Shown here piece by piece: positions 12,207-34,094 of a DNA stretch of 64,000 nt; the stretch's first letter is position 1; every line of letters begins with the position of its first letter. This DNA is from Streptomyces sp. NBC_01478 (GTDB lineage Bacteria; Actinomycetota; Actinomycetes; Streptomycetales; Streptomycetaceae). Both the position numbers and the translations under genes were made by a program. Location: positions 5,685,501 to 5,749,500 of the forward strand of contig NZ_CP109444.1 in the NCBI RefSeq assembly GCF_036227225.1. Direction: 5' to 3'. The notes beneath the pieces were generated by a model. That model worked only from the letters and a program-made list of their open reading frames with translations. It was not told the origin of the DNA and made no database searches.

Positions 12207-12294
12207 GGAGGATTCGCCTAGTGGCCTAGGGCGCACGCTTGGAAAGCGTGTTGGGGGCAACCCCTCACGAGTTCGAATCTCGTATCCTCCGCCA
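12207..12294 (+). tRNA. tRNA-Ser (anticodon GGA), AICE integration site
   Basis: Acceptor GGAGGAT pairs with ATCCTCC. The anticodon stem CACGC/GCGTG carries the loop TTGGAAA, anticodon GGA. It has the long class II variable arm and an encoded CCA. The 3' 56 bases, from 12239 on, are repeated at 27582-27637. The 5' part is chromosomal and the 3' part was supplied by the integrated element, so the tRNA stays intact. Confidence 0.97.
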
Positions 12295-27581: not shown

Positions 27582-27702
27582 TTGGAAAGCGTGTTGGGGG
27601 CAACCCCTCACGAGTTCGAATCTCGTATCCTCCGCCAGTGCCTCACCGGGCACGATGTCGAAGGGCCCCACCATTCACAATGGGGCCCTTCGTCGTTGGC
27701 CG
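27582..27702 (+). repeat. attR: right 121-bp direct repeat with tRNA-Ser 3' remnant
   Basis: Copies the last 56 bases of tRNA-Ser(GGA) plus its trailer and hairpin. The remnant lacks the 5' half and cannot be a functional tRNA. The four differences from attL all fall in the hairpin loop region. Confidence 0.95.
27659..27692 (+). terminator. Original tRNA-Ser hairpin terminator, displaced to attR
   Basis: 12-bp stem CGAAGGGCCCCA with its complement and a 10-nt loop CCATTCACAA. Weaker than the element-supplied copy at 12316, which has 15 bp and a TTCG loop. It now lies 23 bp from the 3' end of the convergent VOC gene. Confidence 0.75.
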
Positions 27703-27714
27703 GCGCGGTTGGAT

Positions 27715-28155
27715 TTATGGCAGTTGTTCGGCCAGGCCGACGATGATGCCCTCCGGGCCGCGGAGGTAGCAGAGCAGGTAGCTGTCCTCGAACCGGGCGA
27801 TCTCGCCGACGAGTTCGGCGCCGTGCGGGCGTAGGCGGGCCACGGTGTCCTTGATGTCGTCGACGGCGAACATGACGCGGTGCGTGCCCAGGATGTTGTG
27901 CGGCCGGTTGCGCGGCCCGGCGTCGGTCGCCTCGGGGCTGCGGTATTTCGCCAGCTCGAGTCGGCTGTGGCCGTCCGGGGTCCGGACCATCGCGATGTCA
28001 CAGTGGACGCCGTCGAGTCCGGTGCACTGGTCGGCGAAGAGGCCCTGGACCTCCCCCCTGCCCTCCAGTTCCATACCGAGTTCCACGAAGAACGCGATGG
28101 CGGCGTCCATGTCCTCCACGACGATGCCGACGTTGTCCATCCGCTGAATCGCCAT
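27715..28155 (-). CDS. VOC-family (glyoxalase/dioxygenase fold) protein
   Basis: 146 residues from ATG 28155 with AAGGAG 8 bp upstream. Two beta-alpha-beta-beta-beta units: D-N-V-G-I-V-V-E-D-M-D-A-A-I-A-F-F at the N-terminus and H-R-V-M-F-A-V-D-D-I-K-D-T-V near residue 90. Conserved metal-ligand-type positions are present (E and H). Could be a metal-dependent isomerase, dioxygenase or a resistance binding protein. First chromosomal gene beyond attR. Confidence 0.85.
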   Translation of the reverse strand: MAIQRMDNVGIVVEDMDAAIAFFVELGMELEGRGEVQGLFADQCTGLDGVHCDIAMVRTPDGHSRLELAKYRSPEATDAGPRNRPHNILGTHRVMFAVDDIKDTVARLRPHGAELVGEIARFEDSYLLCYLRGPEGIIVGLAEQLP

Positions 28156-28330
28156 GCCGGTTTCTCCTTCTTCCTCGGGCGGCCGGTGGTGGGCGGTGCT
28201 GGTCGGTGGTGGCCGCTGATGTACCTGGGACGGAGCCGGTGGCACGTTCTCGACATCCGCGGACCGTCGAAGCAGTGCGGGCCGGGCCGAGCACCTCGTC
28301 GTCTTGCCGGACGGCGGACAGTCCGCGGCT

Positions 28331-28384
28331 GCTCGTCCTCGTGGTCGTGCTCGTCCTCGTGGTCGTGGTCGTGGTCGTGGTCGA
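28331..28384 (+). repeat. CTCGTC/GTGGTC short tandem repeat
   Basis: 54 bp of GTCGTG/CTCGTC units in the 336-bp gene-free stretch between the VOC gene and the large protein gene. No gene is supported in 28156-28491. Confidence 0.7.
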
Positions 28385-28491
28385 CACGGGCTCGTCCGGA
28401 CGGCAACCCGCTCCACGTCTCCGGCATTGAGCCCCGCTCCACCCCCTGGAACTCCGCCCCAGTCAGATCGGCGACTCCGAATTCGGAATTC

Positions 28492-31400
28492 TCATTGGCT
28501 GGCCAGCGGAGTGAGAGTCTGCAACCTGCTGACGAGTTGGTAGCATCGCCGCTCGGGTCCAGAAGTCCGGCCGGCGATCGTTTTGGTCAATTCTCGCATG
28601 GCTGCCGGATGCGCACCGCGTCCGGTTCTCTCGTAGATCGTCAGAAGACGGCGCAGGAGTGAGCGCGCCGCGGAGATATCGCCCTCAAGGGTTTTCGCAT
28701 GTGCCCTGGCGCAGAGGTCGACCGCGTTTCCGTCCGACCGCTCTCCCATTTGGAGATCGGCACGCTCGGGCAAGCTGACCCGTAGAAGTTCCGATACGAC
28801 TACCGAGTACACCTCTCGCTCTGATTCCTCCGGATAGTTCGCGAGGATGTGACGAATCCGGCGCTGTTGTTTGTCGAGATCTCCCGGAAGCAGGCGCAGC
28901 AGAAGGATGAGCCGCTTCAAGGCCTGGGGATTCAGCGAGAGCGCCGTGTTCAGCACGGGAGGAGTGGTGCCTGCCCAGTCGGTCAGGGCCACCAGGCAGT
29001 CCGCCAGCACGGCGGGCTTTTGCCAGTCTTCCTGCACCGCGCAGTCGACCAGGAGCCTGGACACCGCGGAGGAGTCGGCCTGGTCCTTGGCCTGTACGAC
29101 CGCGGTGGCCAATTGCAGCACCAGTTCGGGCTGAGCGGTTTCCGGTATGTCGAGAAAGCCGCGCAGATAGTTCTCCGCGTCCGAGGGGCGCAGCGAGCGA
29201 GCGTGGATCGCTGTTTCCAGCGCGGAGAAATGCAGCGGCAGGAAATCCTTGATGGGTACCTGCGGATCGTTCAGCAGCCGGCCCACCGCGTCCAGTGACA
29301 TTCGGGACAGGGAATGCAGTTCGTCGGGATGCCATGCCCTGGCGAGTTTCAGCAGCCGCTGCCATACGTGCGCGGCCTGATTGTGCGGGAGTTCACGGGC
29401 CAGCGGCAGCAGGACCTCTACGCTCCTCACCCCTAGCCGGTCGTTGGACTCCGCGCGGCGGATCGCCTCCAACTCCGCTTCGAATCTGTGACAGGCGGCG
29501 TCGTCGAGGGTCGACGGCTGGAGGCAGGCTCTCAGTATGCGCAGGGACAGATCGTGCCGTTTCTGGGTGAGGCAGCGGCCCGTCAGATCCGCGAAGTGGT
29601 CCGAGCACTTGAAGCGGTCCTGCAAAGACGCCGTTTCCGCGTCCGCCACAGCGCTGTACAGATGACGCCACAGCCAGTTCCGGTCGTCGGGCCGCCCGTA
29701 CTTGGCGACCAGTGGCGGAAACAACTGCGCCGTGTTCTTTGCATGCAGCAGTTTCGGCACATCCACGATGCCGCCGCGCAGAACCGGCATCAGCAGGTCC
29801 GTGATCTCTTTCTCCCTGGGGAACTTCTTCACCATTTCGAAAAAGTCCGCCCAGGGGTTCACATCCCAATCGGAGGCACCTTGTAACCGGCGGACCAAGT
29901 GAAGCATTGTCTCGTCGCCGCCCAGCGTGAGGAGCATGTGCAGAACTTCGGCCGGGTTGCGCGGTTGAGGAGCCAGATTTTGCGCAAGCTCGTCCGAGAG
30001 ACCCCGCTGCCAGTAGTCCGCCAGGGATCTGACGTCCGGGAGCATTCCACCGTCCAGCCGGTGGATCGCGACAATGAGCGGATACCAGGCGTAGATCTGT
30101 GTCGAAACCGATCCCTGGGTGCTTTTTGCGGCAATGGAGAGGATCAGATCCCGGTGTTCCCTCACCAACCAGGACCGGTCCTCTTTCGAGGCCTTGGTGA
30201 TGAGCTCCCGCGCGAATTTGCAGTGCAATCGATTGGCGGGATCGACTCCTCTCAGTGCCTTGTGGAGAGATTCGCGCCTGTATTTTACGAAGGTGTCGTC
30301 CCCGTTCCGCTTCTTTATTTTCTTCAGTGCCCGGTCCAGGACGGTGCGCTGCCCCAGCCAGACAAGGCGCTGACCGTTCCCCGTGGTGTAGCCGTGTGCC
30401 TGTTCCAGGTCATCCGACGCAAGGCCGAACGCTTCACTGAGAACGCCGTCGGGCACGGGGAGCCGATGGGTTCCGCAGGACATGAGCAACAGAAGGCCGA
30501 GCGACTTGCCCGTGTCGGTCGGGTACTTCTGGTACTGACCGTGCAGTTCTTCTGCGTACCGCTGGAACTCCTGCTCCCGGTCGGAGCTGAGCATGCGGAC
30601 GATCTCACCGATCAGCGGGGGTCTGTCACTCCTGAGGCGAAGGCTCATGTCCGCTTGTTCGCTGTGGGTCATGCGGTGCCGCCCGGACCGGGACGAATGC
30701 AACACCTCGGCGAGCGACTGCACTTCGCCGATCTGCACCCGTCCCACCTGAACCGTTTCCTGGAACGGCTGCAGCCACGTGGGGATGTCGCACTCGGTCA
30801 CCACGTACAGCCCGGGTTCGCCGCCGCCCTTCTCGTCCAGCACGGGGCCGAGCATCGCCCGCACATCATCGGGGTCGGGGACGGCGTCCAGCACGACGAC
30901 GAAGGGCTGTCGCTGCGCGGCACGAAACGCCTTCAGCGCCGTGATGTCCGCTTCGGCCGCCGGATCGAGGACGAAGACGGGGACCTTCCTGATCTGGTGG
31001 AGTTCGTCCACGCTGCGCAGCAGCGCCCAGGTGCGCCCCGAGCCGCGGGCACCGTCCACCTTCAGGATCCTTGAACGCGGGGAGCGCTGGTCGAGCCAGT
31101 CGCCCATGGCCCGGTAGGCCTGACGGTTGATCTCCCGAGCGATCGCCGGCTTCAAGAAGCACTCGTGGGTGACGAGAGCCAGCGGGGTACCAGGAGCGGG
31201 CACTTGCTCCCGCCACCGGGTCCAGTCGACCGGCCCGTCGGCAGCCGGGTCGTCGGCGACCTGCCCGACTGCGACCGGCCCGTCGGTGGCCGGCCCGTCT
31301 GCGACCTGCCCGTCGGTGGCCGGGCCGAGGCTTCGAGGGGTCGGCTCAGCCGTAGAACTGTCCTGCGTGTGCGGTACGGCGACGGCCCGGAACGCTTCGC

Positions 31401-32547
31401 AGGCACGGGCCGCCAGGCGCAGGAACCACTGCTGTTCGGCGGTTTCCGTCCGGCGCGTGAGGAACATCAACGCGCATGCCTGCAGGGCCAGGAGGTACTG
31501 GGGGTGCCATTCGGGCTGGGCGTAACGGTGGGTCTGACGCCAGCGGTCAGGGGCGGCTCGCAGGCTCCGGAGGGCGTACAGCAGATCCTTGGGCAGGCGG
31601 CCTTCGTTCGGGTGGGAAGTCTCCTCGTCCTCGTTGAGCAGGAGTTCTTCCAGCACGCTCCGTTCCGGCTCTTCCAGTCGGGGAAGGTAGTCGCAGACCA
31701 CGTACAGCAACAACTGCACCGGGTCCCGCAGGAGCAGCCCTTCGTCCTCGAAGCGCGACAGGTCGACGAGGCAGAAGGAGTCGGGTTCGAGCTCCGGCCG
31801 CGTGGCCACCATGATGTTTCCGGGGTGCAGGTCGTAGTGGGCGCGGCCCAGTGCCACCGTGGGCGGTTTCAGACCGGCCAGCGGGGAAGGGACCGCGAAC
31901 GGGGTGGGGTTGGGCAGCTCGCGGGGCCATCCCGGCAGCGTGAGGAACTCGCTGTGCAGATCGGCTCCCAGGAGCCGTGCGGCGGCGCCGGCCAGGGCGC
32001 TGGTGGGCCTGGCCCGGTGGCCCAGTGCCTTCGCCAGGAAGTCCTGGGCCGCCATGTCGTGGTCGGCACGCCGGTCGGGGTTCCAGTCCGTGAAGACGCC
32101 ATCGATGACGGCGGCGGCCACATCGATTTTCCCCTCACCAGGTGAAACCGCGGTCAGCGGGTTCAGCGGATGCCGACCGCGTGCGTCGAGCGCGCAGTCG
32201 AGGAACATCAGCCAGGTGTCGCCGACCCGGAGGGGATCGTAGACCTGGCTGATGAATCGGCGTTCAGGGAAGTCGAACGTGGGCCCGCCCTGGCGGAAGG
32301 GCGGGCGGGACTGCCATGCCGCTTCGAGATCATGGGGTTCGGTGACGGCCCCCTCCTCGCCGGCACATAACTTGAGCAGGAGCTTCTGCTGTGGATGCTT
32401 CGCATCCCCTTCGTGGAACACGAAGCCCAGGCGTGCTCCGCTGCCGCCGTCGGGCAATGCTTTCTCGAAGGTGATACTGCGCCGACTGTTCTGCCAGTGC
32501 GCCAGCGCGGCGGCAACCTCCTGGCCAAAGTGCGTCAACCCACTCAT
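28492..32547 (-). CDS. Large kinase-like / P-loop / helical-repeat protein (STAND-like)
   Basis: 1351 residues from ATG 32547, with GGAG 5 bp upstream. Residues 1-395 look like a phosphotransferase or protein-kinase-type domain: a possible Lys in K-L-L-L-K-L (55-60), the catalytic loop H-Y-D-L-H-P-G-N (237-244) and the metal-binding V-D-L-S (261-264). A Gly/Asp/Ala repeat linker (about 408-441, A-D-G-P type) leads to an NTPase-like region with Walker A G-A-R-G-S-G-R-T (499-506) and Walker B F-V-V-V-L-D (549-554). Residues about 650-1351 are long helical solenoid. This matches the effector–NTPase–sensor plan of STAND proteins used in bacterial immunity. Family membership is inferred from motifs only. 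Confidence 0.6.
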   Translation of the reverse strand: MSGLTHFGQEVAAALAHWQNSRRSITFEKALPDGGSGARLGFVFHEGDAKHPQQKLLLKLCAGEEGAVTEPHDLEAAWQSRPPFRQGGPTFDFPERRFISQVYDPLRVGDTWLMFLDCALDARGRHPLNPLTAVSPGEGKIDVAAAVIDGVFTDWNPDRRADHDMAAQDFLAKALGHRARPTSALAGAAARLLGADLHSEFLTLPGWPRELPNPTPFAVPSPLAGLKPPTVALGRAHYDLHPGNIMVATRPELEPDSFCLVDLSRFEDEGLLLRDPVQLLLYVVCDYLPRLEEPERSVLEELLLNEDEETSHPNEGRLPKDLLYALRSLRAAPDRWRQTHRYAQPEWHPQYLLALQACALMFLTRRTETAEQQWFLRLAARACEAFRAVAVPHTQDSSTAEPTPRSLGPATDGQVADGPATDGPVAVGQVADDPAADGPVDWTRWREQVPAPGTPLALVTHECFLKPAIAREINRQAYRAMGDWLDQRSPRSRILKVDGARGSGRTWALLRSVDELHQIRKVPVFVLDPAAEADITALKAFRAAQRQPFVVVLDAVPDPDDVRAMLGPVLDEKGGGEPGLYVVTECDIPTWLQPFQETVQVGRVQIGEVQSLAEVLHSSRSGRHRMTHSEQADMSLRLRSDRPPLIGEIVRMLSSDREQEFQRYAEELHGQYQKYPTDTGKSLGLLLLMSCGTHRLPVPDGVLSEAFGLASDDLEQAHGYTTGNGQRLVWLGQRTVLDRALKKIKKRNGDDTFVKYRRESLHKALRGVDPANRLHCKFARELITKASKEDRSWLVREHRDLILSIAAKSTQGSVSTQIYAWYPLIVAIHRLDGGMLPDVRSLADYWQRGLSDELAQNLAPQPRNPAEVLHMLLTLGGDETMLHLVRRLQGASDWDVNPWADFFEMVKKFPREKEITDLLMPVLRGGIVDVPKLLHAKNTAQLFPPLVAKYGRPDDRNWLWRHLYSAVADAETASLQDRFKCSDHFADLTGRCLTQKRHDLSLRILRACLQPSTLDDAACHRFEAELEAIRRAESNDRLGVRSVEVLLPLARELPHNQAAHVWQRLLKLARAWHPDELHSLSRMSLDAVGRLLNDPQVPIKDFLPLHFSALETAIHARSLRPSDAENYLRGFLDIPETAQPELVLQLATAVVQAKDQADSSAVSRLLVDCAVQEDWQKPAVLADCLVALTDWAGTTPPVLNTALSLNPQALKRLILLLRLLPGDLDKQQRRIRHILANYPEESEREVYSVVVSELLRVSLPERADLQMGERSDGNAVDLCARAHAKTLEGDISAARSLLRRLLTIYERTGRGAHPAAMRELTKTIAGRTSGPERRCYQLVSRLQTLTPLASQ

Positions 32548-32609
32548 CGCTCCAGTCTGTCCGAACCCGGGTCACAGCGTGAGCAGTTGTGGTGCTATGC
32601 CTCCGGAAG

Positions 32610-34094
32610 ATGGACGTCAGGGGGCTGGGGATGGCGTGGACGGGGGCGCTGCGTCGTGTGCAGCGTGCGGCGACGCGGGGCAGGACCGTCAGCGGGCGGG
32701 TGCTGCAGCAGGCGGTGGCCGACCATGACGCGAGCGGGGGACCGTGCCGTATCCAAGGTGCGCGGGTGGCCGGACCGGTCGATCTCTCCCACCGTCAACT
32801 GGAGTTCGGCCTCGAGTTCGTCGAGTGCCGCTTCTCGGATCCGCTGGATCTGCGCGGCATGCAGGCCGTCTCGCTCGATCTGAGCGGTTCGAGTGCTCCT
32901 GCCGTGCTGGCGGACGGCCTTTCCGTGGACGGGGATGTCCGCCTGTCGGGATGCGTCATCGGCACGGCTTCGGGCGAGCCTACGGCGCTGGGCACCGAGA
33001 CCGCTGTCGTACGCGACGGCGTACGGGCCCCGCGACGGGTGGCGGAGCCGCCGGCCGAGGCTCCGCTGCGGCTGGCGGACGCCCGGATCGCGGGCAGTCT
33101 CACGGCGGATGAACTGCGGCTGCAATCCAGCGGGTTGTGGTCCCTGTTCGCTCCTCGCCTCCGTGTCGACGGCGCGATACAGGGGCGTGGGCTGCGGGCG
33201 ACCGGCGCGGTGTATCTGCGGGATGTCCGGGTGGCGCACGCGGTGTACTTCGACGGGGCGCAGGTGGGTGGCATCGACGCCACCGGCCTCTCGTGCGGCC
33301 GCGGGTTCTACGCGGACTGGGGTTTTCGCTCCCATGGACAGATCCTGCTGCGCGGGGCGACGGTCGAATCGGTGGTGACCTTCCACGACGCCGAACTGGC
33401 CGGACCCCACGGGGAGTTGATACTCAGCCGGCTGACGACGTCCCGGCTCCGCCTTGATCTGCGGGCCGCGCCGCCCGGGCGGATCGTCCTGCGGGACGCC
33501 CGGGTGGGAGTACTCGTCGACGACTCCGCCACCTGGCCCGCCGCGGGGCGGCTGGACATCGAGGGGCTCGTCTATCAGCGGCTGGGGTCGATCACTCCCC
33601 TGTCGCTGAAGGACCGGCTGTACTGGCTCGCCCTGGACCACGAGGCCGGCGTGGGCGTCTTCGAGCAACTGGCCGCCTCCTACCAGGCGGCGGGCGACGA
33701 GCGGGCGGTCAGAGCGGTACGGCACGCGCGTGAGCGGCGGCTGCGGCGCGGCGACAGACTCACCGGCCGTATCTGGGGGGCGTTGCAGGACGTCCTGTTC
33801 GGCTACGGCTACGCCCCCAGGCGGGCGTTGCTGTGGCTGCTGGTGCTGGTGGCGGGCGGTTCGAGCTGGTTCTCGGTGCATGCGCCGGCCCCGGCCGGCG
33901 GATCCGGCCAGCGCACGTTCGATCCGGTGCTGTACTGCGTGGATCTGCTGATCCCCGTGGTCTCTCTGGGCTACCGATCGGCTTTCGACCCGGCCGGCTT
34001 GGACAAAGTGGTGGCCGTGTTCTTGATCGCGTCGGGATGGGTGCTGGCCACCGCGGTCGTCTCGGGGGCCAGTCGCGCGTTGGGCCGGGGGTGA
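32610..34094 (+). CDS. Membrane-anchored beta-helix-like protein (oxidoreductase-annotated Streptomyces family)
   Basis: 494 residues from ATG 32610; ATG 32631 is equally possible. Residues 30-330 are strand-rich with recurring V-x-L-x-(G/D)-x-x-(V/I/L) spacing (pentapeptide-like: L-R-L-A-D-A-R-I, V-Y-L-R-D-V-R-V, I-L-L-R-G-A-T-V). A helical segment follows, then two or three membrane helices at the C-terminus (A-L-L-W-L-L-V-L-V-A-G-G and V-A-V-F-L-I-A-S-G-W-V-L-A). Divergent from the large STAND-like gene with only 62 bp between starts, so the promoters overlap. Function unknown. Confidence 0.6.
   Translation: MDVRGLGMAWTGALRRVQRAATRGRTVSGRVLQQAVADHDASGGPCRIQGARVAGPVDLSHRQLEFGLEFVECRFSDPLDLRGMQAVSLDLSGSSAPAVLADGLSVDGDVRLSGCVIGTASGEPTALGTETAVVRDGVRAPRRVAEPPAEAPLRLADARIAGSLTADELRLQSSGLWSLFAPRLRVDGAIQGRGLRATGAVYLRDVRVAHAVYFDGAQVGGIDATGLSCGRGFYADWGFRSHGQILLRGATVESVVTFHDAELAGPHGELILSRLTTSRLRLDLRAAPPGRIVLRDARVGVLVDDSATWPAAGRLDIEGLVYQRLGSITPLSLKDRLYWLALDHEAGVGVFEQLAASYQAAGDERAVRAVRHARERRLRRGDRLTGRIWGALQDVLFGYGYAPRRALLWLLVLVAGGSSWFSVHAPAPAGGSGQRTFDPVLYCVDLLIPVVSLGYRSAFDPAGLDKVVAVFLIASGWVLATAVVSGASRALGRG

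Follow-up and report, generated by a model that had tools for sequence, protein, structure and literature searches.

The subject of this analysis is a pair of divergent genes in a 64,000-nucleotide stretch of Streptomyces sp. NBC_01478 (contig NZ_CP109444.1, positions 5,685,501 to 5,749,500; hereafter the window). One gene encodes a 1351-residue protein that begins with a kinase-fold module carrying a complete active site and continues with a region homologous by sequence to the P-loop core of STAND proteins. The other encodes a membrane protein. The two genes are found in the same divergent arrangement at related loci, and the modules of the large protein are swapped among its relatives. The pair may well be a two-gene conflict unit, probably anti-phage or acting by abortive infection, in which a sensor-NTPase-kinase operates with a dedicated membrane partner; we give this reading an even chance. 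An earlier note, made from the sequence of this stretch, had described the protein as a kinase-like, P-loop and helical-repeat giant of possible immune function. Its sequence observation is confirmed and its interpretation is supported in part. The features of the pair are as follows, ORF standing for open reading frame.

28492..32547, reverse strand: kinase-NTPase-solenoid gene, 1351 amino acids (ORF; homologues of the same architecture are P0002, 74%, and P0003, 70%)
31378..32547, reverse strand: TCAD9-like module of APH/choline-kinase fold, residues 1-390, all catalytic residues present
31228..31365, reverse strand: repeat linker of 15-bp unit, residues 395-440
30628..31227, reverse strand: nSTAND5-like P-loop NTPase core, about residues 441-640, Walker A GARGSGRT
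28495..30627, reverse strand: winged-helix-like segment and long helical solenoid (predicted, probable sensor), about residues 641-1351
32548..32630, no strand: divergent upstream region common to both genes, 83 bp
32631..34094, forward strand: membrane partner, 487 amino acids from the ATG at 32631 (ORF 32589-34094, 501 amino acids)

The N-terminal module has a bilobal kinase fold that is closest to small-molecule kinases of the APH/choline-kinase type. The phosphotransferase catalytic loop, which the earlier note had judged apparently complete, is borne out by this fold and by the alignment: H-Y-D-L-H-P-G-N corresponds to residues 237-244, V-D-L-S to residues 261-264, and K59, E70, H237, D239, N244, D262 and D275 are invariant in 17/17 related modules. 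We take this set to comprise the beta3 Lys, alphaC Glu, HxD Asp, Mg Asn and DFG-type Asp. Phosphotransfer activity would be expected of such a module, and candidate substrates are considered below. The Pfam family that it resembles is TCAD9 (PF19974, version 5), matched with 28.2 bits versus a cut-off of 40 over profile positions 280-424, i.e. the C-lobe half; the precomputed database annotation of the window protein includes PF19974.6. TCAD9 stands for "ternary complex associated domain 9" and has been tied to vWA-MoxR-VMAP conflict systems (PMC10910872). A comparison of the kinase profile with PDB sequences gave two weak rows (E 0.042) covering a MAP kinase loop only, and these were set aside.

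The counts in the 392 genus genomes are minima, as few first-look candidates were scored per genome (4 for the kinase, 2 for the NTPase-solenoid chassis and 3 for the membrane protein, whose matches were listed best first). The kinase is patchily distributed, in 17 of 392 genomes of the genus. The 21 matches in these 392 genomes comprise 8 in a close clade (E ≤3.0e-44, the next match being at 2.9e-31), one remnant, and 12 remoter matches at 11 loci. L061, L064 and L067 fall under the phmmer cut but were confirmed by profile and are included in the 11, and the remnant, a degenerate locus with only pieces of the kinase and membrane genes left (L068:9218-10429), is counted in neither group. The pairing counts do not take in the genomic contexts of P0002, P0003 and P0005-P0009; P0004 is the L051 protein.

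At 8/8 close-clade loci, the kinase gene is divergent from a membrane gene of one close subfamily. Of the earlier interpretations, the proposal that the divergent membrane protein is a partner gains the most support, from this neighbourhood comparison. With start codons picked by eye, the starts are 83 bp apart in the window and 65-97 bp apart at the seven other loci; the intergenic gap, previously put at 62 bp, is 83 bp long if the membrane protein begins at the conserved ATG at 32631. Homologues of about equal length were found elsewhere for both genes, which are therefore not chance ORFs. The membrane partner shows a weak pentapeptide match in its N-terminal half and hydrophobic segments at residues 399-418 and 454-481 of 487. 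Its close subfamily (E ≤7.6e-140, next match 9.8e-57) is present in 9 genus genomes among the matches listed. Pairs of loci with more similar kinases tend to have more similar membrane proteins as well (Spearman 0.90; 28 pairs, which are not independent).

The remoter kinases adjoin a different membrane protein. An S_4TM gene lies next to a kinase gene at 8 of the 11 loci, confirmed by Pfam at six (214-275 bits) and detected by tblastn at L059 and L065. Measured between ORFs or matches, the gap is -4 to 175 bp at seven loci; at L065, the eighth, 74 bp separate the S_4TM and kinase-domain matches. At L060 the S_4TM gene is flanked by two kinase genes, and in L058, at 5.9 kb from the first kinase gene, it comes after another one (337.7 bits). 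S_4TM is rare, occurring in 7/106 genus genomes. In three of these it stands beside a TCAD9-like kinase (G024, G117 and G120), and in G064 and G022 it stands beside SMODS (PF18144, 77-80 bits, from a Pfam scan made at these two places). The fetched stretches of G089 and G122 (a partial S_4TM match), whose neighbours were otherwise inspected by eye, held no kinase-profile match. No S_4TM match was obtained in the window or in the close-clade loci L050-L056. The plasmid collection gave one match, and the linear Streptomyces plasmid NZ_CP109010.1 (336 kb) carries, at 129338-136457 (L028, L060), S_4TM between two TCAD9-type proteins.

Downstream of the kinase module, tandem repeats of 15/30 bp at 31227-31327 encode the linker, as previously noticed, and lead into the chassis. 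The nSTAND_NTPase5 profile matches residues 471-563 (E 2.3e-4), and the scores of 21.4 (window), 32.8 and 31.4 bits are each under the cut-off of 34. When four chassis NTPase rows, of which the program kept three, were compared by hhalign with a STAND set of 20 sequences (5 from kinase-bearing proteins and 15 from nSTAND5 matches), the probability was 96.6%, against 0.1-0.4% for the kinase and solenoid controls. By sequence, then, the NTPase region is homologous to the STAND P-loop core. Its Walker A motif begins at residue 499 and reads GARGSGRT, with Arg in the P-loop Lys position, and is followed by the Walker-B-like VVVLDA. The motif is the same in P0002 and P0003, GRQGSGRT in G743 and GARGRGST in G259, so that the canonical Lys is absent from 5/5 chassis sequences, whereas it is kept in 17 of the 20 above-cut-off nSTAND5 loci inspected. 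ATP hydrolysis is doubtful because of this loss, and the chassis NTPase may act as a switch that binds nucleotide, and not as an ATPase. The AlphaFold2 model of residues 430-1351 (pLDDT 56.6) has a C-terminal half that is almost wholly helical, at low confidence, and an order of elements that fits NTPase, winged helix and long helical solenoid. Of the earlier claims on this part, the Walker A/B region is present and STAND-like but lacks the Walker A Lys, the solenoid has a helical prediction but not a confident structure, and the order effector-NTPase-sensor is supported as output domain, NTPase and helical region. Some further matches were not used: a PDB search with the C-terminal model returned generic helical-repeat proteins (TM scores 0.07-0.23 among the matches listed), with one STAND-TPR entry at rank 50, and a single weak PADLOC match of the helical part to OloA (E 5.6e-4, residues 1113-1267) is probably driven by repeats.

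Kinase and sensor modules are exchanged between proteins, and for one such exchange the break in DNA homology falls on the border between domains. Across 392 genus and 104 order genomes, the only chassis matches beyond the window's own genome are in G259 and G743. The G259 protein (L102:9173-12715) aligns with window residues 440-1348 at 34% identity and carries a Cap4_nuclease N-terminus (38.4 bits versus a cut-off of 26.2); that of G743 aligns from window residue 442, likewise up to 1348, at 50% identity, its N-terminus having no Pfam name. The Cap4 nuclease is a known effector type, and its replacement of the kinase on the same chassis backs the reading of the kinase as effector. No membrane-partner match was found within the stretch fetched for G259 (20 kb) or that for G743, which suggests that the membrane partner follows the kinase. 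Conversely, the kinase is fused to DO-GTPase-like parts in P0004 (E 0.0012) and P0006 (E 0.013), both sub-threshold, to an unnamed part in P0008, and to NB-ARC (22.6 bits versus a cut-off of 23.5) and TPR in P0009. In L065 the fused part is P-loop plus TPR, in L058 it is probably of this type too (sub-threshold), and the L028 tail shows a faint match of propeller type (E 0.006); further fusions carry tails without an assigned name. A relative of the P0004-type DO-GTPase-like C-terminal part is encoded by an ORF of its own elsewhere in the window's genome (G000:C1:10124760-10125698; L023, L069). The exchange of kinase and nuclease on one chassis was not seen among the open-licence papers that the literature searches listed (supplements excluded), nor was a kinase in the place of SMODS or any description of TCAD9 with S_4TM or of the kinase-membrane pair.

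The DNA homology between the window and L050/L051 (78%) extends from the membrane gene across the kinase as far as 31367 and 31369, at the end of the kinase and the edge of the linker. Together with a kinase and membrane gene that stay constant over eight loci while the C-terminus varies, and with EACC1-caspase systems as precedent (PMC7159879), this breakpoint would also fit an arrangement in which the constant core consists of kinase and membrane protein and the effectors are the variable C-terminal modules, the kinase activating and the NTPase-solenoid being deployed. We consider this unlikely, for on the same chassis it is the N-terminus that varies, where a Cap4 nuclease, a known type of effector, can stand, and the NTPase with helical repeat has the layout of a sensor and switch.

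Since Cap4 can fill the N-terminal place on the chassis, and since the kinase adjoins a membrane gene at 8/8 close and 8/11 remoter loci, the simplest model is a sensor, a switch, a kinase and a membrane effector. The long helical part would sense the trigger, and the nSTAND5-like NTPase would serve as switch or as a platform for oligomerisation. The enzymatic output would be the TCAD9-like kinase of APH fold at the N-terminus, freed or clustered on triggering. Its substrate might be the membrane partner itself or a small molecule recognised by that partner; the membrane protein would then damage or shut down the envelope. Domain company is what points to an immune role, and enzymatic activity, substrate, trigger, damage to the membrane and action against phage are inferred parts of this model. 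The parallel with SMODS favours messenger signalling, and a peptide target is possible in view of the resemblance of the kinase to LxmK. More tentatively, and with less than even probability, TCAD9-type kinases could represent an undescribed class of bacterial immune signalling. An APH-fold kinase, switched by a sensor, would replace the SMODS nucleotidyltransferase, and the phosphorylated messenger that it makes, or its direct phosphorylation of the target, would open the cognate membrane effector. That effector would be S_4TM in the remoter clades and the pentapeptide-like protein in the clade of the window, with sensors freely exchanged.

Several observations weigh against a conflict unit of this kind. 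The TCAD9 and nSTAND5 matches of the window protein are both under cut-off, and sub-cut-off matches also occur in control genomes (6/14 for TCAD9, 14/14 for nSTAND5); multi-genome searches with these two families were therefore left out of the claims on distribution. The P-loop Lys is missing and the model of the NTPase and solenoid is of low confidence, as described above. Phage and viral contig collections gave no match. S_4TM is absent from 3/11 remoter loci, which have instead TPR-CHAT (L057), an AbiJ_NTD3 fusion (L061) or, in L063, a gene without an assigned name that has a single hydrophobic segment. The L061 protein (L061:7909-10686, reverse strand) joins the TCAD9-like kinase to AbiJ_NTD3 (178.8 bits) and also has another protein kinase domain (53.9 bits). 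The membrane proteins of L052 and L056 are 77% alike and their kinases 45%, and the ninth close membrane gene, in G032, faces a 1645-residue phosphoribosyltransferase protein and no kinase; this ORF (L103:2793-7727, forward strand) shows by eye two phosphoribosyltransferase stretches and GHKL-like parts. No defence gene was seen near the close pair in the window or L050-L056, by eye and without a PADLOC scan; the expected pairing near known defence genes was accordingly not noticed, and the links to S_4TM, CHAT and AbiJ belong to the remoter kinase loci.

A further such observation, which suits a housekeeping role as well, is that the genes adjoining L052-L056 resemble by eye those of purine catabolism (a xanthine dehydrogenase-like set). 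This, with a fold nearest to small-molecule kinases, would agree with a small-molecule resistance or metabolic kinase of APH/choline-kinase type whose C-terminus is regulatory and whose membrane protein is a scaffold, with no role in conflict. Such a function is rather improbable, given C-termini that are conflict-type NTPase, TPR or GTPase-like modules, a chassis that also carries a Cap4 nuclease, remoter relatives tied to S_4TM, CHAT and AbiJ_NTD3, and the patchy occurrence of the kinase. Least probable is a signalling kinase of a divergently regulated envelope-stress sensor without immune function, which would agree with a wider membrane family present in at least 382/392 genus genomes and with three remote members (L104-L106) among ordinary-looking neighbours, two points that also weigh against the conflict unit, but not with paired membrane proteins that form a sharply separate, kinase-tied subfamily among the matches listed.

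The host genome is a single contig of 12.1 Mb, and the pair lies beside a putative integrated element, the AICE of the earlier note. Its attR, given here as context and outside the two-gene unit, is at

27582..27637, forward strand: attR of the neighbouring element

and is a copy of the final 56 bp of the tRNA-Ser at 12207-12294. The position of the gene beside attR is hence confirmed as sequence, and the 1351-residue gene lies about 0.9 kb outside the element. The gene adjoining attR (window 27715-28416, reverse strand; VOC-like by eye) has 87.5% identity to L050:5767-6321 (forward strand), in inverted orientation, and this VOC-like relative is near the kinase-membrane pair of G007. At five of the seven other close-clade loci, a conserved gene lies directly downstream of the membrane partner:

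L050:12190-13209, L051:17185-18213 and L055:6799-7719, also in L052 and L056: conserved downstream gene

By eye it had the appearance of an inactive trypsin, for which Pfam (three proteins) and a PDB profile gave no match, and this is not claimed. The second gene downstream in L050 (L050:13209-16058, forward strand) encodes 950 amino acids with a TPR-like N-terminal part (by eye) and ends in four S1 stretches (PF00575, 270.9 bits), which by eye resemble nearly the whole of ribosomal protein S1 and could be a decoy module. Partial matches to it occur at L051:18213-19790, L052 and L056, and none in the window.

TCAD9, nSTAND and S_4TM are all known kinds of part. The bacterial immune signalling enzymes known to act via membrane effectors mainly produce cyclic nucleotides or NAD derivatives. 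Here membrane proteins have an intact APH-fold kinase as a fixed neighbour, which points to a signal that is either phosphorylation or a phosphorylated metabolite; the adjacency of remoter kinases to an effector family used by SMODS enzymes points the same way, and this would give TCAD9 a testable function. With STAND/NLR-like defence proteins of the Avs and bNACHT type, the window protein shares the order of output domain, NTPase and repeat region and the swapping of outputs (kinase, Cap4), and it differs in its replaced P-loop Lys, its APH-fold kinase output and its dedicated membrane partner. Compared with TCAD9 systems, where the likeness is to the C-lobe half of the profile and below cut-off, the domain here shares one polypeptide with an NTPase and a helical part and has a membrane gene as partner; by eye, no profile search having been made, neither MoxR nor vWA genes of the ternary systems were noticed near the pair. 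EACC1-caspase, a two-gene membrane-linked conflict system (Kaur et al. 2020), is similar in its two genes, membrane link, constant enzymatic N-terminus and variable C-termini (PMC7159879). Unlike that system, the window has a kinase in place of the caspase or cyclase, its two genes are divergent and do not follow one another 5'-3', and the single-transmembrane EACC1 gives way to a 487-residue pentapeptide-like protein with two hydrophobic segments; a Pfam scan of both window proteins (E up to 1) gave no caspase, cyclase or EACC1. The Cap4_nuclease-nSTAND5 protein of G259 has the same chassis as the window, with a nuclease for the kinase. Finally, most remoter kinase loci place the kinase beside S_4TM, where G064 and G022 have SMODS, but the enzyme is a kinase and not a nucleotidyltransferase, and in the window its partner is a pentapeptide-like membrane protein.

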